Shown here: one piece after another, positions 17,432 to 33,405 of the stretch
How positions within the stretch are numbered: the first letter of the stretch is position 1
Layout of the letters: each line of letters starts with the position of its first letter
Source: Methanobrevibacter sp.
GTDB lineage: Archaea > Methanobacteriota > Methanobacteria > Methanobacteriales > Methanobacteriaceae
Direction of reading: 5' to 3'
Assembly (NCBI RefSeq): GCF_030539665.1
Contig: NZ_JAUNXR010000004.1
Span: 1-64,000, forward strand
Length of the DNA: 64,000 nt
Notes under the pieces: model-generated
What the model was told of the DNA's origin: nothing
The model's input: only the letters and a program-made list of their open reading frames with translations
The model's database searches: none
Made by a program: the position numbers and the translations under genes

Positions 17432-17818
17432 ATGTTTAATTTAATTTTTGAGAGTTTCAATTCTGTTATTTTTACAGGAACATCTAATGGGATTTATACA
17501 GTTTTAGGCTCATCAAATTTAATAATTGATTATTTAATTGTTATTGCTGTATCAATTATTGTAGCTTTATTACTTAGACTTCCATTGCTTCCTGATAAAC
17601 CTTACAGATATTCGTTTAATGTAAGTGCATTATATCCGACTCCAATTATAGCTGTAGGTATTTTATCTTTCTTTTTCATTTTGAACTATTCATTCTGGTC
17701 TGAAGGAAAAATCCTTGCTTTAATTATTGGTATTTGCTCTGCATTGTTTGTAAAATATTTATTTTTTTACATATTTCCAAAACCTCCAGCTGAACAACTA
17801 GAGGGGGCTGGAAAATGA
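17432..17818 (+). CDS. ehaA: Energy-converting hydrogenase A subunit A
   Basis: EhaA is a small integral membrane subunit of the Eha complex. The sequence shows about four hydrophobic segments, near residues 31-48, 65-86, 88-105 and 103-116, and a conserved-looking [13 protein letters not shown] loop. It begins the operon with a strong ribosome-binding site and ends in an ATGA overlap with ehaB. The name rests mainly on its position at the head of the recognisable eha gene order. Confidence 0.82.
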
Positions 17819-18312
17819 ATACTATTATTGGAATTATAATTGCGGCAGTTATTAGCTGGCTAAATTTTGTCATAATTGATACTTATTTCGGTCTTCCTGA
17901 ACAACCTGGTGTTAAAGGGGCTGAAAATATTGGGGAATCAATTAGTGAGAGAGATGGAGATATTGCAGGTGGATTTTTCCAAGGAAACATTCTTTGTTCT
18001 CCTGATGCATCTGCTGGAACTTTGATTGCAACTATTGGTTATATGCTTATGGGGATTCCTGGAGGGTTATTTGCAGCATTAATTATTTTCATTGGAAATA
18101 GGTTATGCGCCGATCCAGGTTATGCTGGTACTTTAGGATCATTTACAATTACTATTATCTTATATTTGACTTCATTTGTGGGTTTAACACCTGAAATGTT
18201 CATTACAGGAATGATAATAGCTATTTTAACTATTCAAGGAATTGATCAGGTTGCTGCTTCCAAACTATTGGGAAAAATTGCAGAAAGGTTTAATAGGCAT
18301 GCTGAAGAGTGA
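17815..18312 (+). CDS. ehaB: Energy-converting hydrogenase A subunit B
   Basis: This is a 165-residue membrane subunit with hydrophobic segments near the N-terminus and through residues 65-150. The loop between them (residues 24-60) contains [13 protein letters not shown] and [17 protein letters not shown]. It overlaps both neighbours. Function is known only as a component of Eha. Confidence 0.82.
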
Positions 18313-18317
18313 TTAAA

Positions 18318-18566
18318 ATGTATGAAGAGATTATCGGAGTAATTATTATATTCGTTGCTTTAAGGGCACTAATTACAAAAAATAAGGCTGAACGATTGCT
18401 ATATATAAACGTGATTGGTTTTGGTGTGTCTGCTCTTATTGCATTGGTTATTGCTACACCTTTTGCTCTTATTGTTGCGGCGGCATTTTTCATTTGTTCT
18501 ACTATTAGTGCAAATGCAATTGCATATTGCTTAAAAAGATTGGATAACGAGGTATTATTGGATTAG
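18318..18566 (+). CDS. ehaC: Energy-converting hydrogenase A subunit C
   Basis: This small membrane subunit has two to three hydrophobic segments. I choose ATG at 18318 rather than the GTG at 18309 because GAGTGAT lies at a suitable distance and the GTG overlaps the ehaB stop. This gives 82 residues. Confidence 0.8.
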   Translation: MYEEIIGVIIIFVALRALITKNKAERLLYINVIGFGVSALIALVIATPFALIVAAAFFICSTISANAIAYCLKRLDNEVLLD

Positions 18567-18578
18567 TAGGGGATTATA

Positions 18579-18851
18579 ATGGAAAATATGGTCGTAACAA
18601 TTATTGCAATAGCTTTAATGTTAATAGGTTCATTCGGTATCATATTATTGAAAAAACCTTTTGATAAGGTCATAATGTTTTCAATCCTTGATGCTGGATT
18701 TGTTTTAGCTGTTGTTCTATTCAAATATTTGGATGTGGCGTTGTTTATTGCAATAGCCGATCCAATTGCAACTATTGTATATTTGGTGTCTATTGTTAAA
18801 ATTAAAGAGATAAGGACTAAGAAAGTTGAAAGTGGTGAGATACATGATTGA
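18579..18851 (+). CDS. ehaD: Energy-converting hydrogenase A subunit D
   Basis: This 90-residue protein has three membrane segments and the form of an MrpC/MnhC- or NuoK-related subunit (LLKKPFDKVIMFSILDAGFV, then an ADPIATIVYL segment). AGGGGA precedes the ATG. It overlaps ehaE by eight bases. Confidence 0.82.
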   Translation: MENMVVTIIAIALMLIGSFGIILLKKPFDKVIMFSILDAGFVLAVVLFKYLDVALFIAIADPIATIVYLVSIVKIKEIRTKKVESGEIHD

Positions 18852-19104
18852 TGTTCAATTATTCTTTTATTTTGGTATCTTTTTAGTTATTGTAGGAAGT
18901 TTAGCTACAGCATGGGGTCCTGGTGTTAACGATCCTGTTGTAAGGGTATTCAATGCAGAGGTTGCATCAATAGGTGTTTCACTGATCTTATTGTCATATA
19001 ATCATATGCTGGCACTTTTTACTCTTGTAGCTGCAAGTGTGGCAATGTCTTTGATCTTATTTAGGGCTATTATTCGTCTCGAGGAAATGGGGGCTGATTT
19101 ATGA
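18844..19104 (+). CDS. ehaE: Energy-converting hydrogenase A subunit E
   Basis: This 86-residue three-helix membrane subunit starts MIDVQLFFYF. The ATG at 18844 is preferred over an upstream TTG at 18826 because GGTGAG lies five bases before it. It contains GPGVNDPVVRVFNAEVASIG, similar in form to MnhG/NuoK-type subunits. It ends in an ATGA overlap with ehaF. Confidence 0.82.
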   Translation: MIDVQLFFYFGIFLVIVGSLATAWGPGVNDPVVRVFNAEVASIGVSLILLSYNHMLALFTLVAASVAMSLILFRAIIRLEEMGADL

Positions 19105-19694
19105 GAATTTCAAGGTTATGGAATAAACTTGCCGACCCTAAAAACATTCCTAGATTGTTTGCTTTTGCATTGGGTGTTATTTTGATAGTTGGTTTTGTTG
19201 TTCCAATGGATTTAAACGTTGATCAGATTTATGTAAGGTCAGCTCCTCAAGTTCAAGTTGACGAAGGGTTAGCTATTGCACCTTATGATAGGGGTGGTGA
19301 AGTTTTAAAAGAACCTGGTATATCCATGGCTCAATATCCTGAAAATGCGCCGGAATTAGGGATGATTAACTCTTATATGACTCCTTTAGCACTTTGGGTT
19401 TCATCTATTTCACCGTATTTCGGGACAACAATCTACTCCTCTCCAGGTGGTTTGATAGATGAGATTTTGTATTATACAAGAGGTTTTGATACAATTTTGG
19501 AATCCTCCATTTTGATGATGGCGTTCATTGTAGCTTCCTGGCTGGCTGTAAATTACACTATGGATAGGAAAAATCAAAAGGAAGAAATTCATAGGGACGT
19601 TAAAAAAGCTATTGCCGATTCAAGCAGAGTAGCTAGTGAAGTTAGAGTTAACGATATTAAGGCTCGTAATAAACAAAATAGGAGGGAGAGATAA
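19101..19694 (+). CDS. ehaF: Energy-converting hydrogenase A subunit F
   Basis: EhaF has two membrane segments (about residues 18-36 and 136-152) separated by a loop of about 100 residues that is probably outside the cell, and a highly charged cytoplasmic C-terminal tail of about 40 residues. It overlaps ehaG by one base (TAATG). Its role in the complex is not established. Confidence 0.82.
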   Translation: MRISRLWNKLADPKNIPRLFAFALGVILIVGFVVPMDLNVDQIYVRSAPQVQVDEGLAIAPYDRGGEVLKEPGISMAQYPENAPELGMINSYMTPLALWVSSISPYFGTTIYSSPGGLIDEILYYTRGFDTILESSILMMAFIVASWLAVNYTMDRKNQKEEIHRDVKKAIADSSRVASEVRVNDIKARNKQNRRER

Positions 19695-20389
19695 TGATTT
19701 TAGTACCTGCCCATGTTCCTGAGGTATTTGTCACAATGTATCTTCCTTCAATTTATGCAGCATTGATTGTAGGATTTATAGCTACAATGGCGATTGCTTT
19801 AAAAAGGGAAGAAATTCATATATTGATTCTTACTGATCTTGTAGGTTTTGCAATGATGATTGTGGTGTCTGCTGTCGGAACCGACCTTGCGGAATCCTTG
19901 ATTTTACCGGGATTGGTAGTTGAATTGGCTGAAATCATGGCAATTTCTGAAATTTTACTTTCAAGGGAAATGCATAAAATTGAAGCCAATCCTCATAAGA
20001 AGCTTAAAAAGTCAGATTCATTATTCCCAGTGCCGTTTGACTTCGATTTAGAAATAATGCATACTGCACCTAATTTCATAGCTTTAATTTTAATAGCTTA
20101 TGGTATATTCTTAACAGGATTTACTGGTGGGGCAGTTGCTGGTGCCGGAATGACTTTCTATGCATTGTCCAAAAAAGCAAGAGGTCTTCCAATTGTAACA
20201 ATAGACGGTCTTAGTGGAATTTCTGGAATTTCCTGGTGTTTGTGGATTATTGGATTTGCAGTTTTCTTCTTGGCTCCAAGTTATTGGTTGATTGCATTAT
20301 TGCTTGCAGCATGTGGTTTATTCTTGAAAGTAGCTTCAAAAGTAGGTTTGATTGGAGTGCTTATGAACGAGGATATTGATAGGAAATAA
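19694..20389 (+). CDS. ehaG: Energy-converting hydrogenase A subunit G
   Basis: This 231-residue membrane subunit has about six hydrophobic segments with a cytoplasmic loop (LSREMHKIEANPHKKLKKSD) in the middle. ESLILPGLVVELAEIMAISE resembles, in placement, an acidic membrane helix of proton-pumping subunits. Followed by ehaH after 16 bases. Confidence 0.82.
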   Translation: MILVPAHVPEVFVTMYLPSIYAALIVGFIATMAIALKREEIHILILTDLVGFAMMIVVSAVGTDLAESLILPGLVVELAEIMAISEILLSREMHKIEANPHKKLKKSDSLFPVPFDFDLEIMHTAPNFIALILIAYGIFLTGFTGGAVAGAGMTFYALSKKARGLPIVTIDGLSGISGISWCLWIIGFAVFFLAPSYWLIALLLAACGLFLKVASKVGLIGVLMNEDIDRK

Positions 20390-20405
20390 TTGAGAGGTTT
20401 TTAAC

Positions 20406-21077
20406 ATGGATATTACAACACTTGGTGGAAATTTACTTGGAACTATTCCTTTTGGTGATATAGTATTGTATGTAACACCTTTCAATTTGCTTTTATTTGC
20501 AATATTGTTGGCATTTACAATATTGATTGCTATTAGTAATACAGAAACTCAAGTAGAGGCTACATTCGGTTCTCTTAAAAATACTGATGTGGCTGTTGGT
20601 AAAAAAGAATTTAAACAAAGAAGATTTTTATCTGTAATTTGTGGTATTGCTTCTGCAGGGGCAATGATTACTGGAGACCTATTTAACTTTACTTTGTTCA
20701 TGGCTTTGATAGGTATTTTAAATATAGGTATTGTATCTGCAGTAAGACAGGTTAGTGTTCTTAACTCAGCATTCAATTATGGTTTGATAGCTATGATGTG
20801 TAGTTTGCCATTGTTTGGTGGTGCGGCCATTATTTTAGCTTCAACAGGAACATTAAGTTTATTTGCTTTATCTCAAATTCATGCAACACCTATGGTAACA
20901 TTCGGTGCGGTTTTAATGTTATTGGGTGTTTTAGGAGAAAGTGGTGTGGCACCGTTCTTTGCATCAAAAGCTGAAATGTTTAGGACTGCAGGATCACCAT
21001 TTTTAGTAATTATACATTTAAGCTCATTGTTTATTATTATAAGGGCTATTGAGATTTTATTGTTGGTTTTGTTATGA
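20406..21077 (+). CDS. ehaH: Energy-converting hydrogenase A subunit H (antiporter-like)
   Basis: EhaH is a shortened relative of the NuoL/M/N and Mrp antiporter subunits, likely part of the ion channel. [20 protein letters not shown] and [13 protein letters not shown] match the conserved helices 4-5, and [22 protein letters not shown] corresponds to the lysine-containing channel segment. At 223 residues it is half the length of a full NuoL/M subunit, as is usual for Eha. Confidence 0.88.
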
Positions 21078-21087
21078 GGTAATAATT

Positions 21088-21303
21088 ATGATTAGTCAGA
21101 AAACAATTTCTAGTATATTGTTAATCTTATCCACATTAGCTATTCTATATGCTTTAATATTTCCAATTTCAGTTTGGATGGTTTATGCTATAGCTATTAT
21201 TTGCATTCCTTTATGGATTTTGTGTTTGGGATTAGTTACAATGGCAAAACCAAGAAAAGGCGATAAAGAGGGAAGGGTCAAAGAACCGTTTACAGGATAT
21301 TAG
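21088..21303 (+). CDS. ehaI: Energy-converting hydrogenase A subunit I
   Basis: This 71-residue membrane protein has two hydrophobic helices and a basic C-terminal tail ([15 protein letters not shown]). ATG at 21088 is chosen over a start at 21049, because GAGGT lies eight bases before it and the longer form overlaps ehaH with no signal. Confidence 0.8.
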
Positions 21304-21310
21304 TGATATT

Positions 21311-22171
21311 ATGTATTTAATGGCGGAAATTTTAATTAATGTAATCATAGCATTTCTTGGAGGAAGTCTTTTATTGGGATTACATAGGAAAATCATGGCT
21401 CGTGTTCAAAGAAGGCCTGGACCTCCAATCATTCAAAATTTATTGCACTCTTTGAAGTTTTTCTTTAAAGAAACAGACACTCCGAAAACAGCGGCCATGC
21501 CATTCTATATGGGGATCATATTCATATTGGCTGTTGTATGGGTTATTGGGGTTATTGCAGGGCCAGTAACTGAAAATTCACTTTTGATTCTATTTGGTGT
21601 TTATGCGGTTTATAAAATTGTAGAGCATAATGCAGGATCAAGTTCAGGTTCTCCTTACGGTAAAATGAGTTGTGTAAGGGCTGTTTTGTCAGCAGCAACC
21701 GAGCTTCCTTTATTTGGAGCTATCGTTCTAGTTTATGCTAAAACAGGCACAATGAACATTGCAAAGATTATTGGCTATCAGTCTGTTCATGGGCCATTGG
21801 TAGCAGTAATACCTCTTGCTGCATTAATGTTTTTCACTTTATTGTTAACAAAGTCACCTTATTCTCCTTTTGCCATTACTAAAGGGAAAGATTTGGTTAC
21901 TGGGTATGAAACAGAACATTTTGGTGTATTGAGAGGATTTTTAATGTTTTCAGAATCTGTTGCATGGTTTGTTTTGTGCTGGTTGTTCTTAACCGTATTC
22001 TTCGGACCGATTTCAATATTGTGGTTGGTTGTTGGTTTGGTTTTAATTTCAGTCATTACTGGATTTATAAATGCTACAACTCCTATGTTAAGTCCGAATC
22101 ATGCTGTGATGGCTCAGATTACAATTTGTTTCGTGTGTTTTGTTGGAACAATTATAATGATGATTATATAA
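21311..22171 (+). CDS. ehaJ: Energy-converting hydrogenase A subunit J (NuoH-like)
   Basis: EhaJ is the membrane anchor related to NuoH/HyfC/EchB that links the hydrogenase module to the ion channel. Seven to eight hydrophobic helices are visible. The conserved cytoplasmic loops are [23 protein letters not shown] at the N-terminal side (only part quoted by position: residues 25-47) and the [23 protein letters not shown] region (residues 177-203). ATG at 21320 is an alternative start. Confidence 0.9.
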
Positions 22172-22184
22172 GGTGATGGTGAAG

Positions 22185-22442
22185 ATGAATAAAGATAATG
22201 CAATTGTATATTTCTGTTCCTTGGTTGCTTTGGGAATCATTTTTATTGGATTTACAGTAAGCTATTTCCAAAGAATGGTGGCCCTTCCTATAATGGCAAT
22301 TGGAATAATTTTATTTGCTTTAGTGATGGTTGTAAACAGGGGACATTGGGCACATCATCTTGAGAATTTGGAGAAAGTATTTTTCTTTATTACAATAGCG
22401 GTAATTTGCATATTGTTTATAATGCATTTTAAACCATTCTAA
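22185..22442 (+). CDS. ehaK: Energy-converting hydrogenase A subunit K
   Basis: This 85-residue membrane subunit has three hydrophobic segments. ATG at 22185 is chosen, with GGTGAT upstream; GTG at 22173 or ATG at 22176 are possible and would add up to four residues. Confidence 0.78.
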   Translation: MNKDNAIVYFCSLVALGIIFIGFTVSYFQRMVALPIMAIGIILFALVMVVNRGHWAHHLENLEKVFFFITIAVICILFIMHFKPF

Positions 22443-22454
22443 GGAGATTATTGG

Positions 22455-22763
22455 ATGATTGATTATTTGATTTACTTATTAACATTTGTCATAGGTTCCA
22501 TTGCTGGACTGTTATGGAGTTATAAGATTCATTCAGAACCTTATGTTATTATGGGTATTGATACAAAATCACTTGTTGTTGCTGTAATAGGTTGGATTTT
22601 GGTTCTTAATGCTTATTTCTCATGGATATTGTTGGCTATCGGATTCTTCTTAGTAGGTTTCGTACTTTGTGAAAGGCCAGGATATGGTAGAAAAGAAACA
22701 GTGATTGGAATTGTGGTTGGAGGAGTGATTTATTTAATATGTCACTTAATTCTAATGGTGTGA
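22455..22763 (+). CDS. ehaL: Energy-converting hydrogenase A subunit L
   Basis: This 102-residue membrane subunit has about four hydrophobic helices; CERPGYGRKET forms a cytoplasmic loop. AAGGAG lies upstream of the ATG. It is followed by ehaM after five bases. Confidence 0.8.
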   Translation: MIDYLIYLLTFVIGSIAGLLWSYKIHSEPYVIMGIDTKSLVVAVIGWILVLNAYFSWILLAIGFFLVGFVLCERPGYGRKETVIGIVVGGVIYLICHLILMV

Positions 22764-22768
22764 TTAAT

Positions 22769-23170
22769 ATGAATGATGAAGAACGTTTGATATTAATGAA
22801 ACAAAGAATTATTCAAAGTTTCAGATGGCATAAAGATATAATTGTTCCAATAGCGGATGAATTTGGAATAACTGAAGAGGAAATGGCAGATATCTTTATG
22901 AATGCCTTGGATATGTCTTCTCTTGAATCACTGCATTCAACATTGGATTCTGCTGAATATATTGCTCTTAAAGGACAGATTTATATTGATTTAAGATTAT
23001 GTTGGTTATCCAGAACTTTGGAATTAGTTACACCTGAACAAGCGGAGGATATTCAGATAAGATTGGCCGATGCTGTTTATGATCATGGAAAACCTTATGA
23101 AGATGCATTGGAAGAAGGTAGAGCAGAAATTTTGGAAATCTTAAGAAATACTAGTATTAAAGAGGAGTGA
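22769..23170 (+). CDS. ehaM: Energy-converting hydrogenase A subunit M
   Basis: EhaM is a soluble, all-helical subunit of the Eha complex. I take ATG at 22769 ([10 protein letters not shown], 133 residues) rather than an earlier in-frame ATG at 22739 inside ehaL, because GGTG lies eight bases before it. No catalytic motif is visible; the two halves contain repeated acidic helices. Confidence 0.83.
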
Positions 23171-23175
23171 ATACA

Positions 23176-23625
23176 ATGTTAAATACTATTAAGGATATTG
23201 TAAGAAAAAGCTCAATTCATGTTTGTATTGTAAATTGTGGGGGATGTAATGGTTGTGATGTGGAATTAGTTGCATTATTATCTCCAAGATACGATTTAGA
23301 GCAATATGGTATTTATGTTCACAACAATCCTCGTGAAGCTGATGTTCTATTGCTTACTGGAGCAGTTACAGAGCAATGGGTAACTGACCTTAAAAGAATT
23401 TATGATAAAGCACCTGAACCAAAGATTGTTGTGGCAGTTGGTAATTGCCCTATTTCTGGGGATGTATTTAATCAGGAAGGTGGGAAAGTTCATGCTCCTG
23501 CATCAAATTTCATACCTGTGGATGCATCTATTCCAGGTTGTCCGCCACGTCCAAGCGAGATTTTAGAAGCTATTCTTGCTGTTGGACCAGATGCTATAGC
23601 TCAACGTGGGAGGGAAGATGGATGA
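23176..23625 (+). CDS. ehaN: [NiFe]-hydrogenase small subunit EhaN
   Basis: EhaN is the small subunit that holds the proximal [4Fe-4S] cluster, taking electrons from the NiFe site. Ligand cysteines are in [19 protein letters not shown] and [11 protein letters not shown] at 23176 follows AGAGGAG by eight bases; GTG at 23167 is in frame but overlaps the ribosome-binding site. It overlaps ehaO by four bases (ATGA). Confidence 0.93.
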
Positions 23626-24746
23626 TATTACCTATTGGACCAATTCATCCAGGTTTAAAAGAACCTTTAAGGCTTAAACTTCAAACTGAAGGTGAAAGGG
23701 TCATTAAAGCTGAAATTGAATATGGTTATGTTCATAGAGGAATTGAGAAAATAATTGAAGGTAAAAATTGGCAAAAAGCTATTTATTTATGTGAAAGGGT
23801 ATGCGGTATCTGTTCTTATGAACACACTCAGACTTTCGCAGAATCAATTGAAAGGATTTCAGGAGTGCAGGCACCGTTAAGAGCTCAATTTTTAAGAGTA
23901 ATTACCAACGAACTTGATAGGATTCAAAGTCATTTGCTTGCTAATTCAACATTTTTCAAGTGTCTCGATCATGAAACATTATTCATGCAAGTTCTGGACA
24001 TGAGAGAATACATTATGGATTCTATTGAATTGCTAACTGGAAATAGGGTTAATATGGGTTGGAATGTAGTTGGTGGAGTTAAAATGGATGCCGATGAAAG
24101 ATTTTTCAATCCTATTCTCGAAAATCTTAAAATTGTTGAAAAACAATTGCCTCTTACTCGTGAATTATATGCAGAAGGGCCTGTTGTGGCTTTAAGGTCA
24201 AAAGATGTAGGAAAAATGACCAAAAAAGAAGCTATTAAAGGAAGAGCAGTAGGGCCTATTGGAAGAGGATCAGGAATAAAATACGATTTTAGAGAAGAGC
24301 ATTACACTTACAAGGACCATTTCGATTTCAAACCGATCTGGAGAAAGGAAGGAGACAATTATGCAAGAACTTTAAACAGGTTTGATGAAATTCCAGAATC
24401 CATTAGCTTAATAAGGCAAGCTATTGACAACATGCCTAAAGGAGATATAAGAACTCCTGTAGATATTAAAACAGGATTCGTAACTCATAAAAATGAGGCT
24501 CCTCGTGGTGAAGTTACCTATATGGTTGAAACTAACGGTAATCTAATAAAAAATATTTCCATAAGGACTCCTAGTATTTCCAACATCGATGCTTGCGCTA
24601 AATATATGTTGAAAGATGTGGCAACCATTGCTGATGCTGTTGCAACTTATGCTTCTAGTGATCCATGCATTGCATGTGCTGAAAGGGTAGCTATTACTAA
24701 TGAACATAATCAGACAGTTAAAAAAGACTTATTTGAGGTAATTTAA
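23622..24746 (+). CDS. ehaO: [NiFe]-hydrogenase large subunit EhaO
   Basis: EhaO carries the NiFe centre that splits or makes H2. The N-terminal motif is [10 protein letters not shown] with Cys61, Cys64 and His68, and the C-terminal motif is [10 protein letters not shown] with Cys349 and Cys352, so all four nickel-ligand cysteines are present. About 20 residues follow the last motif. ATG at 23622 ([10 protein letters not shown]) matches group 4 hydrogenases; an earlier in-frame ATG at 23538 lies inside ehaN and is rejected. Confidence 0.95.
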
Positions 24747-25787
24747 ATGTCTTCTCTAATTTGGTACATTTATGATTTTGCAAGAAAGGCATGGGTGGAT
24801 AAGTTTTCCAATGCATACACTCGTCAAAATATTATGGATAAACCTCAAAGGTTCAGAGATTTTCCAAAGGTTAATAAGGAGTACTGTATAGCTTGTGGTG
24901 CATGTACTGCTTCATGTCCGTCTCCTCATGCAATTATCCTTGTCAGGGATGAAGACGGCGAAGAAGGACAAGGACTTACCTATCCTGTCATTAATAATGG
25001 GGCATGCATTCGTTGTGGTTTTTGTGCTGAAGTTTGTCCAACCGATCCTAAAACATTGGAATGTGGTGAAAATCATCTTATTAAGCCGGAATTCAACATA
25101 ATTCCTTCCAAAAGACAGTACATAGTTGATGATTATCTTTGCATTAGATGTAAAAAATGTATGAAAACATGTCCTGTTAATGCAATATCTGTTGTGGATG
25201 ACAGAATTGTAGTGGATCAACTTAAATGTATTCATTGTAATGAATGTGTTGATGTTTGTCCTGTGGAAGGTGCAATGAAAGCAGTAATTGTGGATAATTT
25301 GCAAGATCAAAAAGATTTAATTGCTCTTGTTGTGACTTTCTTGGAGAACTTTATTGAATCCAAAACTGATGATTTAAGAAGCCTTAAAAAGGATTCATTA
25401 TTGCAATATGAAGTTCCAATCACTGAAATTTGGGATCAGGCACTGGAGATAATTCCTGATGGTGAAATTGCTATGGAAATTATTAGGAAAGCAGTTAATA
25501 GAATGAAAATAAGGATTATTGATTGGGATTCTGAAAAATGTAAAAAATGTCAATTATGTATTCCTGAATGTCCTACTGATGCAATTAGTTTCGATGAAGA
25601 AAATGATATTGTTGTTAGGGACTCTGAAAAATGTTTAAGATGTAGTATTTGTTATCAGACCTGTCCTTTTTCAGTTATTAAGTATTTCCTGGCTAAATTT
25701 GCACTTGAACAGAATGAAGATGGTGATGAAGTAATTTACGTTAGTGTAAGAAATTCTAATTTATCTAATGATATTGTGGTGGACTGA
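24747..25787 (+). CDS. ehaP: Polyferredoxin EhaP, six [4Fe-4S] motifs
   Basis: EhaP is predicted to wire electrons between the hydrogenase and soluble ferredoxin. Six complete C--C--C---C motifs are present: CIACGACTASC, CIRCGFCAEVC, CIRCKKCMKTC, CIHCNECVDVC, CKKCQLCIPEC and CLRCSICYQTC. Between the fourth and fifth lies a helical spacer of about 90 residues without cysteines. The count of six matches the Eha six-cluster polyferredoxin. It starts immediately after ehaO. Confidence 0.93.
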   Translation: MSSLIWYIYDFARKAWVDKFSNAYTRQNIMDKPQRFRDFPKVNKEYCIACGACTASCPSPHAIILVRDEDGEEGQGLTYPVINNGACIRCGFCAEVCPTDPKTLECGENHLIKPEFNIIPSKRQYIVDDYLCIRCKKCMKTCPVNAISVVDDRIVVDQLKCIHCNECVDVCPVEGAMKAVIVDNLQDQKDLIALVVTFLENFIESKTDDLRSLKKDSLLQYEVPITEIWDQALEIIPDGEIAMEIIRKAVNRMKIRIIDWDSEKCKKCQLCIPECPTDAISFDEENDIVVRDSEKCLRCSICYQTCPFSVIKYFLAKFALEQNEDGDEVIYVSVRNSNLSNDIVVD

Positions 25788-25792
25788 TATTA

Positions 25793-27157
25793 ATGATTGA
25801 TAGTTATACAAAGACTCCAAGACCAATTAGGGATGTGGATATTGAATATTCAATAGATCAAAGTAAATGTGATATTTGCGTAGACAAGCCATGTCTTGCC
25901 TCTTGTCCTATTGAAGCGATATTGCTTGATCCTGTTGATGGCCATACTAAAATCAACAGTACATGTTTTGGTTGTGTATTATGTCGTAATGCATGTCCTT
26001 ATGATGCAATTACAATTCATAAGCATATGGCTCCACCAATCAAAGAAAACGTTCCAAACATTAATTCTAAATTATGTAAGGCTTGTGGGGCATGTGTGCA
26101 GGCTTGTAAAACTGGTGCTATTCATATTAATGCCACAGGCTCTGGAGAAGCCCACAGTGAAATAGATCCTGAAAAGTGTATTCGTTGTGGATATTGCTTC
26201 AGGGTATGTCCTACAGATGCAATCAAGTATGGTGAGCTAATTCCAAAAACTGTAAAGGGTGGAAAAGCTATTGTTATTCGTGAAAATGATTGTATTGGGT
26301 GCATGACATGTACTCGTGTTTGTCCATCCATGGGAGCAATCGAGGTTAGTAAAACAAGCAGATTGCCTTATATCAATCCATCTTATTGTGCTAGATGTGA
26401 GGAATGTATGCATTCCTGTCCTTCTGGAGCTATTAAATACTCTTCACGTAAAAGGGCTTTTTCAACTTATGCTGACATTAAATACTTTGATATTGTTTCT
26501 GAAATTGTTAATAAAGACATGAAAAAGCTTTCTTTCAATATTGTGGGCCTTAATGATGTTTTATCAAACATTGCAAATAATTTGATGTTGCAGTTTGATG
26601 ATGAGCCTGCTGTGGAATATAGGGAAGTGGAAGTTTCTAAAATATTGATAGAAAAAGAATTGGGATTGGTTCTTGATAGCAGTATTGAAGTGGATAAATT
26701 TGGAAATATTCTTGACAGCAAGCTTGTTAAAAGACATATTGATGTCATGGCTTCAAAATGTATTGCATGTGGTGAATGTTTAAATGTCTGTCCTGTATCT
26801 GCAATTAGGTTAAACCCTCCAAATCCTATTGAAATTCAGGACAACTGTGTTTACTGTGGTTTATGTGCAGATATTTGTAAATTTGATGCTATTAAGGTTT
26901 ATGATGACTATTATTACAGCAAAGACGATAATCTCTACTTTGCCCGTCGTTATGTTGACGGAAAAAGGAAAGGCAATTTCTCATTGTCTGATTGCAAATG
27001 CCAAGTCTGTACAATCTGTGTTAAAAATTGTCCAACTGCTACACTTTCCTGCGAGGATGAAAAAATCCTCTTTGATGAACCTAAGTGTATTTATTGTAGG
27101 GAATGTGAACAGATATGTCCTGTGGACGCCATTGTTATAAAGTTTGATGAAGAATAA
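25793..27157 (+). CDS. ehaQ: Polyferredoxin EhaQ, ten [4Fe-4S] motifs
   Basis: EhaQ contains ten cluster motifs, matching the ten-cluster polyferredoxin of Eha. The first is a variant with longer spacing (CDICVDKPCLASC). The third and eighth have Lys in place of Pro after the last Cys (CKACGACVQACK, CVYCGLCADICK). A cysteine-free spacer of about 100 residues separates motifs six and seven. It lies five bases after ehaP. Confidence 0.92.
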   Translation: MIDSYTKTPRPIRDVDIEYSIDQSKCDICVDKPCLASCPIEAILLDPVDGHTKINSTCFGCVLCRNACPYDAITIHKHMAPPIKENVPNINSKLCKACGACVQACKTGAIHINATGSGEAHSEIDPEKCIRCGYCFRVCPTDAIKYGELIPKTVKGGKAIVIRENDCIGCMTCTRVCPSMGAIEVSKTSRLPYINPSYCARCEECMHSCPSGAIKYSSRKRAFSTYADIKYFDIVSEIVNKDMKKLSFNIVGLNDVLSNIANNLMLQFDDEPAVEYREVEVSKILIEKELGLVLDSSIEVDKFGNILDSKLVKRHIDVMASKCIACGECLNVCPVSAIRLNPPNPIEIQDNCVYCGLCADICKFDAIKVYDDYYYSKDDNLYFARRYVDGKRKGNFSLSDCKCQVCTICVKNCPTATLSCEDEKILFDEPKCIYCRECEQICPVDAIVIKFDEE

Positions 27158-27172: not shown

Positions 27173-28216
27173 TTGAAAGCAAAATCTTACATCACAGATT
27201 GTGAAGGGCCATTGTCTTTAAATGATAATGCCTATGAATTGGCAGACCATTTTATTGAAGATGGGGGAGAATTGTTTAAAACTCTTAGCTTATATGATGA
27301 TTATTTGGTTGATGTTGTTAAGAAGGAGGATTACAAGGCAGGCAATACATTAAAGCTTATACTTCCATTTTTCTTAAATGAGGGCATTACTAATGATGAT
27401 ATGGTTGAATTTTCCCGAAACAACATTTTTATCTTGAAGGATTCTGAAGATTTAATTAATCACATTAAAAATACAATGAATCATTATATAGTTAGTACTA
27501 GCTATGGTCAATATATTGAAGCACTCTCTCAATATATGGACTTTCCATTTGAAAATACATTTTTCACAGATGTAGATATGGATATGACCATTACAAATAA
27601 TGAAAAGGAATCGATTAATAATTTCAAAAAACAGATTCTTGAAAACCCCGAAAACTACGAATTGTTTGATAAAATATTCTTTGAAGAAATTCCGAAGATG
27701 GGCTTCTACAACTCAATAAAGGATATCGAAGTTGTTGGAGGGGAAGGTAAAAAAATAGCTATTGAAAGAATAATCGAAGACGAAAACATAGACCAGAACA
27801 ATATCTTCTACATTGGAGACAGCATCACTGATGTCGAACCATTGGAATTTGCAAAAGACCATGGTGGAATCAGCGTTTCATTTAATGGAAACAAGTATTC
27901 ACTTAAGGCGGCGGAAATCGCTATCGTATCTCCATCTGCAGCTGCAAGTCTTCTGATTGCAGATTTGTATAATAGAAACGATAAGGATGCTGTTTTAAAG
28001 TTCATTGGGGAATATAACCAGTCAGAAAATATTGAAGAATTGTTAAATAGATATAATATTGATGATTCGGTAAAAAGCAAATTTTTAAATACTTTTTCAA
28101 ATAAAACTTATCCGCTTATTAAAATTATAACTGATGATAATTTTGATGAAATTTTAGATATAAGTAGTGAAATGCGAAATACAATTCGCGGACAAAATAT
28201 AGGAGAATTAGGATAA
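27173..28216 (+). CDS. ehaR: Energy-converting hydrogenase A subunit R (HAD-like)
   Basis: This hydrophilic protein has the form of a haloacid-dehalogenase-family phosphatase: motif I is ITDCEGPLS near residue 8, motif II VSTSYG, and motif IV GDSITDVEPLEFA. The second aspartate of motif I is replaced by Glu-Gly, and family members in methanogens are annotated EhaR. Start is TTG at 27173, with GGAG eight bases before it. Whether it is an active phosphatase or a structural or regulatory part of Eha is not known. Confidence 0.82.
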   Translation: MKAKSYITDCEGPLSLNDNAYELADHFIEDGGELFKTLSLYDDYLVDVVKKEDYKAGNTLKLILPFFLNEGITNDDMVEFSRNNIFILKDSEDLINHIKNTMNHYIVSTSYGQYIEALSQYMDFPFENTFFTDVDMDMTITNNEKESINNFKKQILENPENYELFDKIFFEEIPKMGFYNSIKDIEVVGGEGKKIAIERIIEDENIDQNNIFYIGDSITDVEPLEFAKDHGGISVSFNGNKYSLKAAEIAIVSPSAAASLLIADLYNRNDKDAVLKFIGEYNQSENIEELLNRYNIDDSVKSKFLNTFSNKTYPLIKIITDDNFDEILDISSEMRNTIRGQNIGELG

Positions 28217-28228
28217 AGAGGTAATAAT

Positions 28229-29119
28229 ATGGATTATAGTCACGTGGAAGACACTTATTTCGAAGCTTTTGAAGGAAAATATGTAAGGGCATTAATAACT
28301 GCTCCAAATATGGAAATTTTAAAAAAGGCAGCTTATGATTCAACTGCAACTCCAAGTGCGGTAATTGGTAGAGTTGAAGGTGGAGTTGAAGGGTTTTTAC
28401 CGAAAAGTGAAACTCCTGACGGCCGTTATGGTGCAGTAGTGCAATACTGGCTCGGTGGAGATGATGTGGATAAATTCGCATTTGAATTATCTTATAGATT
28501 AAGGCAGGATATTCTTGTAAAACCGTTCACACGTGTTTTTGATTATGCCGATAAGGTTTCTGACGAATATATTGAAATGATGGATATTGTGGGCCACTGT
28601 GGAGATGGCTACGAATGGATTATTGAAAAATACAATAGGAGAATGATTAACGTTCCGATTGCAGTTCCTGACTTCCAAATCGAAGAGAAATTCACATTGA
28701 ATGATGGGATTATGGGCGCTAACTTCTGGTATTTGTGTTCAACACAGGAAGCGGTTTTAAGAGCAGGTAAAAAGGCTCTTGATGCGATAATGGCTGTGGA
28801 AGGAGCTACAACTCCATTTGACGTATGTTCTGCAGCTTCAAAACCGGAGACTAATTTCCCGGAAATCGGACCAACCACAAACCATGTTTACTGTCCGTCA
28901 TTGAAGGATAGACTTGGAGAGGAGTCCAAGGTGCCTAATGATATTAATTACATCCCTGAAATCGTAATTAACGCAACTGACGAAAAGGCAATGAAAGAAG
29001 CTGTAAAGGCAGGTATTGATGCTGTTTTAGAATTTGAAGGCGTCCTTGCAGTATCTGCAGGTAATTATGACGGTAAACTTGGAGATAAAATTTATAATTT
29101 ACTTGATTTGTTAAAATAG
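28229..29119 (+). CDS. Formylmethanofuran:H4MPT formyltransferase paralog in the eha operon
   Basis: The 296-residue protein is full-length for Ftr, the enzyme moving the formyl group from methanofuran to tetrahydromethanopterin in CO2 reduction. VEDTYFEAFEGKYVRALITA at the N-terminus and TPDGRYGAVVQYW follow the Ftr pattern. Ftr paralogs are known near eha in Methanobacteriales and have been discussed as accessory Eha proteins (EhaS or EhaT); the letter is not certain. GAGGT precedes the ATG. It could be a second Ftr or a non-catalytic partner. Confidence 0.85.
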   Translation: MDYSHVEDTYFEAFEGKYVRALITAPNMEILKKAAYDSTATPSAVIGRVEGGVEGFLPKSETPDGRYGAVVQYWLGGDDVDKFAFELSYRLRQDILVKPFTRVFDYADKVSDEYIEMMDIVGHCGDGYEWIIEKYNRRMINVPIAVPDFQIEEKFTLNDGIMGANFWYLCSTQEAVLRAGKKALDAIMAVEGATTPFDVCSAASKPETNFPEIGPTTNHVYCPSLKDRLGEESKVPNDINYIPEIVINATDEKAMKEAVKAGIDAVLEFEGVLAVSAGNYDGKLGDKIYNLLDLLK

Positions 29120-29129
29120 GTTTAATAAT

Positions 29130-30074
29130 ATGAGAATTCTAGATAACGATATTGATGTGGATGTAATAGGCTTCGGTGCTTTAAACGTTGATAAGCTTTT
29201 CAGCGTTGAAAATATTGCATGCAAGGATCAGGAAAGTTTTGTAAAATCACAAAAAGACACACCTGGCGGCTCTGCAGCTAACACCATAATAGGCCTTTCC
29301 AGATTGAACAGGAAAACATCCATCATCGGTAAAATAGCTGAAGATGATGAAGGTGAAGTTATTGAGCTTAATTTAGCTTTCAATGGTGTTTATACAAATA
29401 ATTTAATTTACTCATCAGAAGGCAGTACAGGTAAGGTATTGGGTTTTGTTGACAGTGAAGGAAATCGTGCACTTTATGTTGATGCCGGTGTAAATGATGA
29501 GATAAAAATAGCCGAAATAAATCCGAGAAATGTCAATGTTTCCAAGATAATGCATTATACTTCATTTGTGGGGGACAGCTTTAAAACTCAAATAGAGCTT
29601 TTGGATGATTTAAAGGAGGACATGATTTTAAGCTTTGACCCTGGAATGATCTATGTTGAAAAGGGTTTGGAAGCACTAAAACCAATATTGGAAAGGACCA
29701 ATATCCTTTTGATTAACGAATCCGAATTAAGAATTCTTTACGATGATTTAGAGGAATCATCCATAGAGGAACTGGCTAAAAAGGTTTTGGATTCTGGAAT
29801 AGAAACCGTTGTTGTTAAAAAAGGAAGCGAAGGAGTGTATGCAACCACTTACACTGAAAAATGCGATGTTCCTGCCTTTAAAAGCAAGGTTGTAGACACC
29901 ACTGGTGCAGGAGACAGTTTCAACAGCGGATTTTTATATGGCCAGTTAAACGGATTCAATTTGGAGCAGTCTTGCATATTGGGTAACTTTACAGCAAGCA
30001 AGGCTATTGAAGCTATTGGAATGGAAAATTTCCCTACTGAAGAGGATTTAAAAAAATTGATTAACAGTTGGTAA
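29130..30074 (+). CDS. PfkB-family (ribokinase-like) kinase
   Basis: The N-terminal GGSAANTIIGLSRL and C-terminal DTTGAGDSFNSGFLYG are the two PfkB signatures; the latter holds the catalytic aspartate. It phosphorylates a sugar, nucleoside or similar small molecule, but the substrate is unknown. It lies ten bases after the Ftr paralog and four before the next ferredoxin gene, so it is part of the extended eha transcript. Confidence 0.88.
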   Translation: MRILDNDIDVDVIGFGALNVDKLFSVENIACKDQESFVKSQKDTPGGSAANTIIGLSRLNRKTSIIGKIAEDDEGEVIELNLAFNGVYTNNLIYSSEGSTGKVLGFVDSEGNRALYVDAGVNDEIKIAEINPRNVNVSKIMHYTSFVGDSFKTQIELLDDLKEDMILSFDPGMIYVEKGLEALKPILERTNILLINESELRILYDDLEESSIEELAKKVLDSGIETVVVKKGSEGVYATTYTEKCDVPAFKSKVVDTTGAGDSFNSGFLYGQLNGFNLEQSCILGNFTASKAIEAIGMENFPTEEDLKKLINSW

Positions 30075-30078
30075 TATT

Positions 30079-30912
30079 ATGGACATATCTTTTGATAAAA
30101 AAATAAAAAGTTTAGAACATAGCGTTTATTTGAAATCTGTTGATTTGGAAGACAATAACGATGATTTTAAATTTGAATTGGGGGATTTCCAATCTGAAGT
30201 GGAATTGATAGCTATTGGTTCTGATTGTGTTAGATGCAATCTATGTGTTGAGGTATGTCCGGTTGATGCAATCGATGAGGCCAATCTTTTTAAAATAGCT
30301 GAGATACGACAGGATGACTGCGTTAAATGTGAAATCTGTGTTCAAACATGTCCAATCACATGTATTAAAATCATTAAGAACCTTGTTGAATTCAGTGCAG
30401 ATGAAGGGGATGTTGTTAAATATTACCTCTCTGAAAGAACCATTCCCCATAGAATCATTAGGATGGAGGACATAGCCATTGATTATGAGACATGTAATGC
30501 TGAGGGGGACGTTCCTAAATTCTGTCCGACAGGTGCATATACCTTTGAATTTAAGGAATACTTCGAAGATCATGATATTGAAGTTGATATTGCTCTTGAA
30601 GAGGATACTCTTTATCCGGTCATTGATAAGAAACTATGTATTGGATGCGGTGCCTGTCTTGTAACTTCAATCGGCGACTTTATAACTTTAAAGAGGTATG
30701 TCGGATCTTTGATAAATACCAAAAATCTTGAAATTAATCAGGATATTTGTGTAAACTGTTATTTATGTGAAGAAAATTGCCCTACAGATGCAATCAAACT
30801 TGAAAATGGAGAAGTTGTTTTAGATGATGACAAATGTATAAGATGTATAGAATGTACCAGCTGCTGCCCTGTAGGTGCATTAAAACTTGTAAAAGAAGAG
30901 GAGGATGAATAA
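30079..30912 (+). CDS. Additional polyferredoxin with two degenerate cluster sites
   Basis: Four full [4Fe-4S] motifs are visible: CVRCNLCVEVC, CVKCEICVQTC, CVNCYLCEENC and CIRCIECTSCC. Between them are two degenerate sites: CNAEGDVPKFCP, and CIGCGACLVTS, which lacks the last cysteine. It may carry electrons for the Eha complex. Its last codons overlap the ribosome-binding site of the CBS gene. Confidence 0.9.
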   Translation: MDISFDKKIKSLEHSVYLKSVDLEDNNDDFKFELGDFQSEVELIAIGSDCVRCNLCVEVCPVDAIDEANLFKIAEIRQDDCVKCEICVQTCPITCIKIIKNLVEFSADEGDVVKYYLSERTIPHRIIRMEDIAIDYETCNAEGDVPKFCPTGAYTFEFKEYFEDHDIEVDIALEEDTLYPVIDKKLCIGCGACLVTSIGDFITLKRYVGSLINTKNLEINQDICVNCYLCEENCPTDAIKLENGEVVLDDDKCIRCIECTSCCPVGALKLVKEEEDE

Positions 30913-30913
30913 A

Positions 30914-31549
30914 ATGAGAGCTAAACAATTGATGGATACAAAATTTGCATATATTCATGCTAATGATGCAGTGGAAGATGTTGCAAAGGTAATGGAAGAA
31001 ATTCGTAGATTCACTTGTCCTGTTGTAGACGAAGACATGAAATTGATAGGTTGGGTAACTTCCTTTGACATTACAAGGGGACTGCGTGAAGGCATAGATA
31101 AAATTTCAGATGTCATGAGTTCCGCTGATGAGGTGGAGACAATAAACGAAAATGCACCGGCAAGATTGGCAGTAATAATGACTGCAGACAATCATTATGT
31201 CGCAGTGCCAGTTTTAAATGACAATAATCAGGTTGTCGGTATTATAAGATCATGCGATATTGTAAAGCTATTGTCAGCACTTTACGATATTAAGGTATCA
31301 AGCATATATGAAGCTATGCAAAAGCAGCTCAAGGGAGTAAGCTGGGAAGACTTAATGGAAGCTTCCGCTGCAGTTTCCAGAAGGGCTACTGGAAGAAAAA
31401 TCACTCCTGAGGAATATGAAAACAACATAAACAATTCAACATTCGGTGAAGCTATTTGGGCAACTGGAGGTCTTGAAAACTTCTTCGCAGGCTTGATTTC
31501 TGTTGGTGAATTAGTTTTAGCACGTCGTGTTGGAAGAGCGAGAAAATAA
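30914..31549 (+). CDS. CBS-domain protein linked to eha
   Basis: Residues 1-120 form a pair of CBS domains (KQLMDTKFAYIHANDAVEDV; ISDVMSSADEVETI), which usually bind adenine nucleotides or SAM and act as sensors. The C-terminal 90 residues are not a domain I recognise (WEDLMEASAAVSRRATGRKI). ATG at 30914 is preferred to 30905 because GAGGAGG lies nine bases before it. It may tune Eha activity to energy state; that is inference from position. Confidence 0.85.
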   Translation: MRAKQLMDTKFAYIHANDAVEDVAKVMEEIRRFTCPVVDEDMKLIGWVTSFDITRGLREGIDKISDVMSSADEVETINENAPARLAVIMTADNHYVAVPVLNDNNQVVGIIRSCDIVKLLSALYDIKVSSIYEAMQKQLKGVSWEDLMEASAAVSRRATGRKITPEEYENNINNSTFGEAIWATGGLENFFAGLISVGELVLARRVGRARK

Positions 31550-31577
31550 TTATTTTACCTTTTTAGGAAGTTTTAAT

Positions 31578-32702
31578 GTGGTAGATGGAAAAATTTTAGA
31601 AAAGCAAAATCAATTGATTGAATTGGTATCTAACTTTTGTGATGAGGAGTTAGACGAAGGATATAAAAACGCATCCATATCTTTAATTGAAAAAATGGGT
31701 GAAATGGAAGATGTTCCTTTCAAAAGAGGAAAGCTTGAAATCTGGGCAAGCGGAATAATCAACGCTTTAGGCCAGATCAATTCCCTTTTTGACAAGGATT
31801 TAGAGTTTAATAAAACTCCTGATGACATTTGCAATTATTTCCAGACCAAAAAACCTACTGTATCTCAAAAATCAAAACTAATTAGGGACATGTTTGATTT
31901 GGATGAGGACGGAAAAGAATTTTTAATAGGTGATGATGTTGAAACAGAAAGTTCATCAGATTCAGATTCTGAAGGTTTGTTGGTTCCTGCTGACAATGAG
32001 GATGGTCTTGATGACCTTTATAAGGAAATGGTTGGAAAATCCATTAGTATAGCTGATAAGGAAGATGTTGCAGGTTTGAACGAATCAGATTATGGTGTTG
32101 GCAATTACCATAGTAATTTCAGTTCGTTGGAGGAGTATGAATTTGCAATTGATCATTTCAAGGAAATGAAAGGTGAAGATTATTTCGCTGAAAACAAGGG
32201 CAAGTTTTGGCAGCTTTTAGAAACAAGGTATTTCATGCAGAACGTAATGGATTATGCAAATTTACTTTGGCGTGTTGGTAGAAAGCAGGATGCTGTTGTT
32301 AATTTGGAATATCTTCTTGAATTAAATCCTGGGGATCATCAGGGAGTTAGGGACCTTTTAATTAACTATCTCATTAATTTGAATAGGTTGGATGAAGCTG
32401 AAAAGTTAATCAATCTTTATGATTTTGAATCTACTGCAAACTGGGACTATTCAAAATTGTTGATAGCTATTAAAAATAAGGAAGGCAAGGATGTCATTCG
32501 CGAATTGTATGATGATGCGTTTTCCAACAATCATCATGTGGTTGATTTCATCCTCTCTAAAAAGCAGTTTGGGGAATGTCCTAGAACCTATGTTCTTGGG
32601 GATGAAAACGAAGCTATTGTTTACATGTTCCTGTCCGAAAACAATTGGAAAGACAAGAAGGCTTTAAAGACTCTAAAGAAATTGTCTAAAAACAAGTTTT
32701 AG
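31578..32702 (+). CDS. DUF6398-like plus TPR-type protein
   Basis: The N-terminal 110 residues (KRGKLEIWASGIINALGQIN; PTVSQKSKLIRDMF) resemble DUF6398. An acidic, serine-rich linker follows (about residues 125-160), then helical repeats with a TPR look (WRVGRKQDAVVNLEYLLELNPGD). GTG at 31578 is chosen, with AGGA nine bases upstream; starts inside the CBS gene lack a signal. Function unknown; it ends the eha-linked gene run. Confidence 0.75.
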   Translation: MVDGKILEKQNQLIELVSNFCDEELDEGYKNASISLIEKMGEMEDVPFKRGKLEIWASGIINALGQINSLFDKDLEFNKTPDDICNYFQTKKPTVSQKSKLIRDMFDLDEDGKEFLIGDDVETESSSDSDSEGLLVPADNEDGLDDLYKEMVGKSISIADKEDVAGLNESDYGVGNYHSNFSSLEEYEFAIDHFKEMKGEDYFAENKGKFWQLLETRYFMQNVMDYANLLWRVGRKQDAVVNLEYLLELNPGDHQGVRDLLINYLINLNRLDEAEKLINLYDFESTANWDYSKLLIAIKNKEGKDVIRELYDDAFSNNHHVVDFILSKKQFGECPRTYVLGDENEAIVYMFLSENNWKDKKALKTLKKLSKNKF

Positions 32703-32722
32703 ATTCATTTCTTCTATTTCGG

Positions 32723-32754
32723 ATATTGGTTTGAATTTAAGGTTCCACCAATAT
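32723..32754 (+). terminator. Inverted repeat downstream of the eha run, possible transcript end
   Basis: ATATTGGT and ACCAATAT pair perfectly across a 16-base loop, 20 bases after the last eha-linked gene, and a pyrimidine-rich tract follows. It could stabilise or end the long transcript. Confidence 0.4.
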
Positions 32755-32793
32755 TTCTTCCAATTTTAATTTTTGAAACTAATTTATCGAAAA

Positions 32794-32842
32794 CTTTATA
32801 TATGTCAATAAACTAATAGTATGTAATCGGTCGAAAGCCGAT
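32794..32842 (+). promoter_or_regulatory. TATA box followed by a short hairpin
   Basis: CTTTATATATG at 32793-32803 is a TATA candidate. About 27 bases downstream lies a six-base-pair hairpin (32826-32842, ATCGGT-CGAAA-GCCGAT with one G-T pair) at the expected transcript start. No coding region of size follows, so a non-coding transcript is possible. Confidence 0.35.
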
Positions 32843-32928
32843 TTGATTATATGTGATATTGGTTGTGATGTAATATTTTAACCACAAAATAACAACATTT
32901 ATATAATATTAAACACATATATTATAAT

Positions 32929-33044
32929 GTAGGCGATTGCTTCCTACTGATTTTGTAGATGTCTAATTTATGCTAAAGATATTATGACCTGACGTAATAG
33001 ATGATGAACAGCTTTCAAGAACAATCAACGATTTATTTTTTTTT
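32929..33044 (+). ncRNA. Candidate small non-coding RNA
   Basis: A second TATA box (32898-32908, TTTATATAATA) predicts a start near 32930. The predicted RNA starts with a hairpin (GTAGG...CCTAC, 32929-32947) and ends at a run of nine T bases (33036-33044), about 116 bases. It contains no long open frame. No known RNA family was recognised. Confidence 0.35.
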
Positions 33045-33164
33045 AAACAAATGTTGTTTTTTGGCTGTTTTGGCTTTGAACTGATTTGTAATGATGTGTT
33101 AGCTTGGCTCATCGTTAAAATCAGGCGAATTGGACATGGTGAGTAAATAAAATTTAAAGATACA

Positions 33165-33344
33165 ATGTCAATCTATAATACCCACATTCAAAAACAGAAC
33201 GAAGTCCTTTGTATTGTTGCAAACTCAATAGGTTATTTTCATGTAATGTCTGAAAACGTTCCTTCCCTTAAGGATTATAATGCGGAGCTTTCCAGATACA
33301 TGTGGACCCTTAACCTTGTTGATTTAAGGAATATGGAATCCTAA
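33165..33344 (+). CDS. Small hypothetical protein, doubtful
   Basis: A 59-codon frame begins MSIYNTHIQK and ends LVDLRNMES. The codon choice looks coding-like and the length exceeds chance in this AT-rich sequence, but there is no clear ribosome-binding site. It may be a genuine small gene or a remnant. It lies 60 bases before the TFB gene. Confidence 0.35.
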   Translation: MSIYNTHIQKQNEVLCIVANSIGYFHVMSENVPSLKDYNAELSRYMWTLNLVDLRNMES

Positions 33345-33405
33345 CCTTTTATTTTTTTATTAGGCATGGTGTTAATTGAAATTTTTTCATGATAGAGGAT
33401 AGAAA

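Follow-up and report, generated by a model that had tools for sequence, protein, structure and literature searches.

A gene cassette behind the Eha hydrogenase operon of Methanobrevibacter as a candidate for the missing archaeal phosphoribosylglycinamide formylation step

The window analyzed here is a stretch of 64,000 nucleotides (nt) from a Methanobrevibacter sp. contig (NZ_JAUNXR010000004.1, positions 1 to 64,000), and our subject is the group of genes directly behind its Eha hydrogenase operon. The genes ehaA to ehaQ occupy 17432..27157 on the + strand, as open reading frames (ORFs) whose orthologues appear in the same order in related loci, and include the Eha large subunit (23622-24746, +), which served as the Eha marker. 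Six further ORFs follow ehaQ on the same strand (27173-32702), with successive gaps of 15, 12, 10, 4, 1 and 28 nt, the start codons being our choice. The first three are ehaR (27173..28216), encoding a HAD-superfamily phosphatase-like protein (Pfam Hydrolase_3 over the cut-off); ehaS (28229..29119), encoding an Ftr paralog (Pfam FTR/FTR_C) proposed here to be a phosphoribosylglycinamide (GAR) formyltransferase; and ehaT (29130..30074), encoding a PfkB-family kinase (Pfam PfkB). They are followed by genes for a polyferredoxin (30079..30912; Pfam Fer4), placed directly after ehaT as in Methanothermobacter, a two-CBS-domain protein (30914..31549; Pfam CBS twice), and a DUF6398/TPR protein (31578..32702; the ORF can open at 31527), in which DUF6398 scores over and TPR below the cut-off. 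We argue that ehaR-ehaS-ehaT (R-S-T) forms a self-contained, Eha-independent cassette and that, with a probability of roughly 0.7, it supplies the conversion of GAR to formyl-GAR (FGAR) in archaea without PurN and PurT.

An earlier note, made from the sequence of the window alone, had described the five genes behind ehaR as closely spaced accessory genes extending the operon and perhaps a larger Eha supercomplex. The close spacing is as it described, with gaps of 12, 10, 4, 1 and 28 nt on one strand, but the Ftr paralog and the PfkB kinase do not extend the operon beyond its named genes: EhaR, EhaS and EhaT are names already published for Eha subunits, the last two having first been annotated as a formyltransferase and a ribokinase (PMC3087415). 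The literature also already mentions a 6[4Fe4S] polyferredoxin downstream of the operon (PMC3087415). The gene-level observation is thus sound, but largely not new in itself. In our analysis, the six-gene set comprises three unrelated groups, namely R-S-T, the polyferredoxin with the CBS protein, and the DUF6398/TPR gene.

Each gene was searched in 151 Methanobacteria genomes, and the Eha large subunit scored below 1e-100 in 125 of them. Genomes were counted as Eha-less where the large subunit was missing for reasons other than contig ends, which gave 22 of the 151: all 20 of genus g12, plus G001 and G007. Four genomes (G020, G070, G072 and G084) were left out of this count, as their large subunit was unfound while the polyferredoxin and CBS genes were kept and the contigs were fragmentary; we read these absences as assembly breaks. 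Genus g12 is presumably Methanosphaera. In agreement with this, Methanosphaera is given without Eha in Table 2 of PMC2686161. All three of EhaR, EhaS and EhaT were present in 22/22 Eha-less genomes, whereas the polyferredoxin and the CBS gene were each found in 0/22. Over the 151 genomes, the totals were 148 for EhaR, 150 for EhaS (147 below 1e-100), 149 for EhaT, 127 for the polyferredoxin, 125 for the CBS gene and 31 for the TPR gene. In gene maps of five g12 genomes and of G007, the three cassette genes were contiguous and no other eha gene accompanied them, and in G001 the cassette order was T-R-S; the neighbours of R-S-T in the Methanosphaera-like genomes were uninformative. Because R-S-T is kept without Eha and the polyferredoxin and CBS genes are lost with it, the set regarded as one in the earlier note splits into two halves, and ehaR groups with EhaS and EhaT, not with the hydrogenase.

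These results bear directly on the possibility that EhaR, EhaS and EhaT are Eha subunits or assembly factors, with EhaS a dead formyltransferase turned into a structural part. The published names, the reported cotranscription of ehaS and ehaT with ehaA-R in M. marburgensis (PMC3087415) and the position of R-S-T directly behind ehaQ in most mapped Methanobacteria loci all favour such a role, yet the three genes outlast Eha in every Eha-less genome, R-S-T also lies in purine clusters of Bathyarchaeota whose loci contain no eha gene, and EhaS (median identity 58%, with Glu244 invariant in 34 sequences) shows more conservation than a dead scaffold would allow. We regard this explanation as very improbable, and the findings already contradict it as a general role. 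In Methanobacteriales, R-S-T adjoins the eha operon, and its products have been taken for hydrogenase subunits. Poor co-occurrence with eha, named in the earlier note as part of what would refute its proposal, was observed for the Ftr paralog and the PfkB kinase. The names also need care elsewhere: in Methanococci a CBS protein is encoded at MMP1466 and 'EhaT' (MMP1467) is described as confined to Methanococcales and Methanopyrales (PMC8479958, PMC1852104), so that EhaS and EhaT there need not denote the same genes.

Some individual genomes differ from the common layout. In G001, T-R-S lies in an apparent operon (L033, 7928-13392) with genes for a 94-amino-acid protein, for a ParA-like ATPase and for a radical SAM protein that weakly resembles B12-binding types. 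An EhaO-like match in the same genome was rejected as Eha, as it belongs to a different hydrogenase cluster (identities of 42% for N, 36% for O and 24% for J); this cluster also holds a 33% Q-like match and no A-H. A divergent Eha with a large subunit 57% identical to that of the window, followed by R-S-T, polyferredoxin and CBS, was observed on contig 51 of G142 (L049, genus g17).

The polyferredoxin and CBS genes behave differently from the cassette. Besides being absent from all Eha-less genomes, they stand directly behind ehaQ in one g18 genome (L038) in which R-S-T lies far off (L037). There, an ehaA-like gene has remained beside R-S-T (L037, 6423-7827) and ehaB-Q lie elsewhere (L038, 8867-19444), with an Eha large subunit only 59% identical to that of the window; the split suggests that an ancestral operon was broken or Eha replaced. 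Two of the six CxxCxxCxxxC clusters of the window polyferredoxin are degenerate, as first noted, and four are intact. Among 23 orthologues, six clusters were intact in 17, five in 2 and four in 4, including that of the window, so the loss of two clusters is local and limited to the relatives of the window. In the CBS protein, the C-terminal tail was conserved across 22 aligned orthologues. On these grounds the two proteins are credible Eha partners, and the earlier idea of a link to Eha is partly borne out for them, though not for the Ftr paralog and the PfkB kinase. The DUF6398/TPR gene drops out as well. Any match to it was found in only 31/151 genomes, and the listed matches outside the genome of the window lie on other contigs than the listed CBS gene of the same genome; it was rejected as a member of the conserved set and is a local, unconserved neighbour.

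The context of the cassette outside Methanobacteria points to purine synthesis. The EhaR profile was compared with the genomes of named species, and the best 80 of 318 relatives were taken, comprising 14 methanobacterial loci, 62 from other archaea (nearly all Bathyarchaeota) and 4 from bacteria. Among the 62 non-methanobacterial archaeal loci, purD stood immediately upstream of EhaR in 57, with a median gap of -4 nt and 53 gaps of at most 5 nt, and the order purF-purD-ehaR occurred in 39. EhaS followed EhaR immediately in 50 of the 62, EhaS and EhaT were adjacent in 47 (median gap -4 nt), and at least one pur gene was present in 59. In Bathyarchaeota, the order is purF-purD-ehaR-ehaS-ehaT, facing purQ-purL-purS-purM. 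ORF clustering across the loci gave a set of recurrent neighbours, named PurD, PurF, PurQ, PurL, PurS and PurM through Pfam/NCBIfam from one example each (the PurD example scored 260.9 against a cut-off of 288, and the PurF example came from L058). GAR formylation is the step between PurD and PurL/Q/S. The EhaS proteins of the archaeal loci are mostly 58-66% identical to that of G001.

Searches for the enzymes known for this step came back negative. Neither PurT nor PurN scored over the cut-off in any of the 151 Methanobacteria genomes or of 49 genomes behind the related loci, whereas the same searches gave matches over the cut-off in 4 (PurT) and 11 (PurN) of 14 control genomes. The 49 genomes stand behind 50 of the 80 loci and were chosen to cover all the bacteria, the EhaS-less loci and most Bathyarchaeota, with L070 excluded. 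PurT matches in Methanobacteria were weak (at most 64 bits against a cut-off of 502) and were rejected; most lie in ORFs of about 1065 amino acids, which by protein size read as the carbamoyl-phosphate synthase large subunit. The sole PurN match in the 151 genomes (G030) was likewise discarded, as NCBIfam identifies it as Fmt and it probably stems from contamination. This gap has been noticed before. A 2011 survey listed seven archaea with otherwise near-complete purine pathways but no GAR formyltransferase, recording the gap for Archaeoglobi, Methanothermobacter, Methanosphaera, Methanobrevibacter (two species) and Methanopyrus (PMC3261824), and in 2022 ANME-1 were described as likewise without a known enzyme, with an "as yet unidentified" enzyme being suggested (PMC9012536). 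Our searches of the open-licence PMC literature retrieved no paper that assigns a GAR-formylation role to EhaR, EhaS or EhaT.

EhaS itself has the fold of a formyltransferase. The genome of the window (1.62 Mb, 13 contigs) contains two Ftr-family genes, a canonical one elsewhere and ehaS. The latter matches FTR/FTR_C, and its AlphaFold model (predicted local distance difference test score, pLDDT, 89.1; least confident at 208-213) superposes on 1m5s and 1ftr with a template modelling (TM) score of 0.88. EhaS Glu244, invariant in the 34-sequence alignment, aligns with Glu245 of M. kandleri Ftr, which we take to be the catalytic residue. At the same time, EhaS scores below the cut-off of the Ftr equivalog TIGR03119 (195 bits in the window and 237 in L060, against 292.6), and 70 EhaS sequences group separately from 4 canonical Ftr, with a support of 0.973 for their clade. 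The median identity of the methanobacterial EhaS to other EhaS is 58%, compared with 40% to canonical Ftr. Residues R92, Q93, H123, W167 and H219 are fixed in EhaS and different in Ftr, and a PGG-type stretch is lost. A decayed Ftr was rejected on the basis of this conservation and the intact motifs; the simplest reading of the sequences is that EhaS is active and that its substrate has changed.

Its two partners can be placed in known superfamilies. The EhaR profile matched PDB 1y8a (AF1437 of Archaeoglobus fulgidus) at an E value of 5.8e-53, and the AlphaFold model (pLDDT 95.9) gave a Z score of 39.5 to 1y8a and about 20 to SerB phosphatases, confirming the HAD fold; after 1y8a, SerB-type phosphatases led the structural matches, and 5'-nucleotidases appeared only in the Foldseek list. 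HAD phosphatases usually have a second Asp in motif I. In EhaR, motif I reads D-C-E-G-P and motif IV GDSxTD; across the best 80 relatives, DCEGP was found in 77 and DxD in 0 by the pattern used, and the residues of the other HAD motifs are conserved. For EhaT, the best solved relative was MJ0406 (2c49, 'sugar kinase MJ0406'; E value 5.3e-30), presumably a nucleoside kinase. As expected of a PfkB protein, GAGD is kept in the window protein and [GA]AGD in 66 of 67 relatives. A literature search under the name AF1437 found no paper containing it. Archaeoglobus is recorded in print as lacking PurN and PurT; it has an EhaR homologue (AF1437), and two ftr genes are reported for it (PMC3949148).

A change of the middle gene in bacteria gives a further indication of function. 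None of the four bacterial EhaR loci (L109, L114, L118 and L121) contained EhaS. Instead, the gene order was PfkB, a folate-type formyltransferase protein (PF00551-type) and EhaR in L109, L114 and L118 (the PF00551-type gene of L118 being recognized by translation of the DNA), and in L121 the contig begins inside a PF00551-type gene next to EhaR. PurN was the best NCBIfam family for these proteins, at scores below the cut-off (TIGR00639, 52-68 bits against 150.1); EhaS had no match to this model. GAR transformylases were the closest solved structures to the L114 protein, and purM lies about 7 kb from the L114 cassette. The only other TIGR00639 match in each of the four genomes is best described as a methionyl-tRNA formyltransferase (three over the cut-off of the methionyl-tRNA formyltransferase model, one below). 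In L109 (9962-13162), a UbiA prenyltransferase gene comes after that for EhaR. As a PurN-like protein and EhaS share one slot between the same partners, the partners probably go with the acceptor and not with the donor.

The same bacterial proteins have to be considered in judging whether what the cassette formylates is another ribosyl amine, branching from purine intermediates, with another enzyme performing the GAR step. The phosphate loop of PurN lies in the N-terminal part. It is this part of the bacterial proteins that is unmatched by the PurN model (in the complete proteins the match begins at model positions 13, 14 and 44), and known GAR formyltransferases need neither an EhaR nor an EhaT. 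Both points would suit another amine, which we nevertheless consider improbable given the place of EhaR directly after purD in 57 of the 62 loci and a PurN-like cassette enzyme in bacteria showing no other PurN.

GAR formylation by the cassette remains our preferred reading; its computed basis is the independence from Eha, the place in purine operons, the lack of PurN and PurT over the cut-off, the bacterial swap, and the Ftr fold with its aligned Glu. EhaS would transfer a formyl group to GAR or its riboside, with formyl-methanofuran or formyl-tetrahydromethanopterin (formyl-H4MPT) as the probable donor in place of folate or free formate. EhaR, with its phosphatase fold, and EhaT, a kinase of the riboside type, may act on the acceptor or the product, handling the 5'-phosphate or a related feature of the acceptor; the acceptor side is suggested because both stay when the donor-specific enzyme changes. 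The gene order and the constant pairing of EhaR and EhaT would permit a phosphate-free detour, in which EhaR dephosphorylates GAR, EhaS formylates glycinamide riboside and EhaT rephosphorylates the product to FGAR, with EhaS possibly replaced in some bacteria by a PurN-like enzyme whose N-terminal loop is altered. Such a route would require EhaR and EhaT whatever the formyl donor, a requirement to which the exchange of the middle gene points; the route is a speculative detail that we hold to be rather unlikely as it stands.

Published labelling bears on the donor. Purine C8 was derived from acetate C2 in M. stadtmanae and not in M. smithii, data quoted as inconsistent (PMC3261824), and Methanosphaera has lost molybdopterin synthesis and with it CO2 reduction via formylmethanofuran dehydrogenase (PMC13135261). 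Without CO2 reduction, Methanosphaera would take the formyl group from serine, hence from acetate C2, and M. smithii from CO2; we infer that the labelling agrees with a formyl donor bound to a pterin or a furan and supplied from serine or CO2. Formyl carriers of this kind could also be used differently, with EhaS hydrolysing formyl-methanofuran or formyl-H4MPT to formate in a PurU-like manner for the AICAR (5-aminoimidazole-4-carboxamide ribonucleotide) step of PurP, and EhaR and EhaT serving nucleotide salvage. The purine context would be the same, and the Methylorubrum formyltransferase/hydrolase complex includes an Ftr-type protein (title of 6s6y). However, hydrolysis would leave GAR formylation unfilled, as neither PurN nor PurT scores over the cut-off, and gives no account of the PurN-like replacement in bacteria, which makes it distinctly improbable.

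Several points weigh against assigning GAR formylation to the cassette. The cotranscription in M. marburgensis noted above led its authors to deem a role of EhaS and EhaT in CO2 reduction or sugar activation unlikely, and N10-formyl-H4MPT has been doubted as a usable formyl donor (PMC3087415 and PMC3261824, respectively). In the Methanobacteriales loci checked, the cassette lies away from purine genes, apart from purF near EhaR in L058, and 3 of the 62 other archaeal loci (L061, L092 and L097) have no pur gene, two of them being on short contigs. In L074 and L128, purF-purD-EhaR is present, but the 10 kb downstream contain no EhaS, and neither PurN nor PurT scores over the cut-off in the genome; EhaS may lie elsewhere or be replaced. 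EhaR carries Glu at the place of the usual second Asp of motif I. The genomes behind the fetched loci are mostly metagenome-assembled, with completeness unreported, and the EhaS survey covers the 151 Methanobacteria genomes and the fetched EhaR loci. The presence of the remaining purine pathway in Methanobacteriales rests on published accounts.

Downstream of the region, an AT-rich stretch of 700 nt (32703-33405) precedes a gene resembling transcription factor B, as judged by eye (33406-34392). The stretch contains a TATA-like sequence and a 59-amino-acid ORF (33165-33344) with no Pfam or NCBIfam match, and has no Rfam match. Rfam and tRNA scans of the whole window gave no matches.

Taken as proposed, the cassette names a candidate gene set for the long-missing enzyme of the first formylation in near-universal purine synthesis. 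It also takes three proteins out of models of the Eha hydrogenase, leaving the polyferredoxin and CBS pair as a sharper target for the study of Eha electron transfer and control. The proposal suggests a direct supply of formyl groups from methanofuran or H4MPT to nucleotide synthesis, and it would explain the retention of R-S-T in Methanosphaera, which is unable to make methane from CO2. The phosphate-free detour, if true, would add a third class to the known modes of GAR formylation and would be the first to proceed through ribosides.

Compared with known systems, EhaS resembles Ftr in fold (TM 0.88), in about 40% identity and in the Glu at the Glu245 position, and differs from it in its own clade, its TIGR03119 score below the cut-off, its family-specific residues and the lost PGG-type stretch. 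With PurN it would share the reaction and the place in the pathway, and a PurN-like protein fills its slot in bacteria; it differs in having no sequence match to PurN, in the proposed methanofuran- or H4MPT-bound formyl donor, and in its HAD and PfkB partners. PurT has the product proposed for EhaS, FGAR, and uses ATP, as EhaT possibly does, but no protein scored over the PurT cut-off in the 151 and 49 genomes. EhaR is similar in fold to AF1437 (1y8a; Z 39.5) and to SerB-type HAD phosphatases (Z about 20), and unlike them has Glu at position +2 of motif I. R-S-T shares with the Eha hydrogenase (EhaA-T) its operon position in Methanobacteriales and its published names, and yet it outlives Eha and occurs far outside it.

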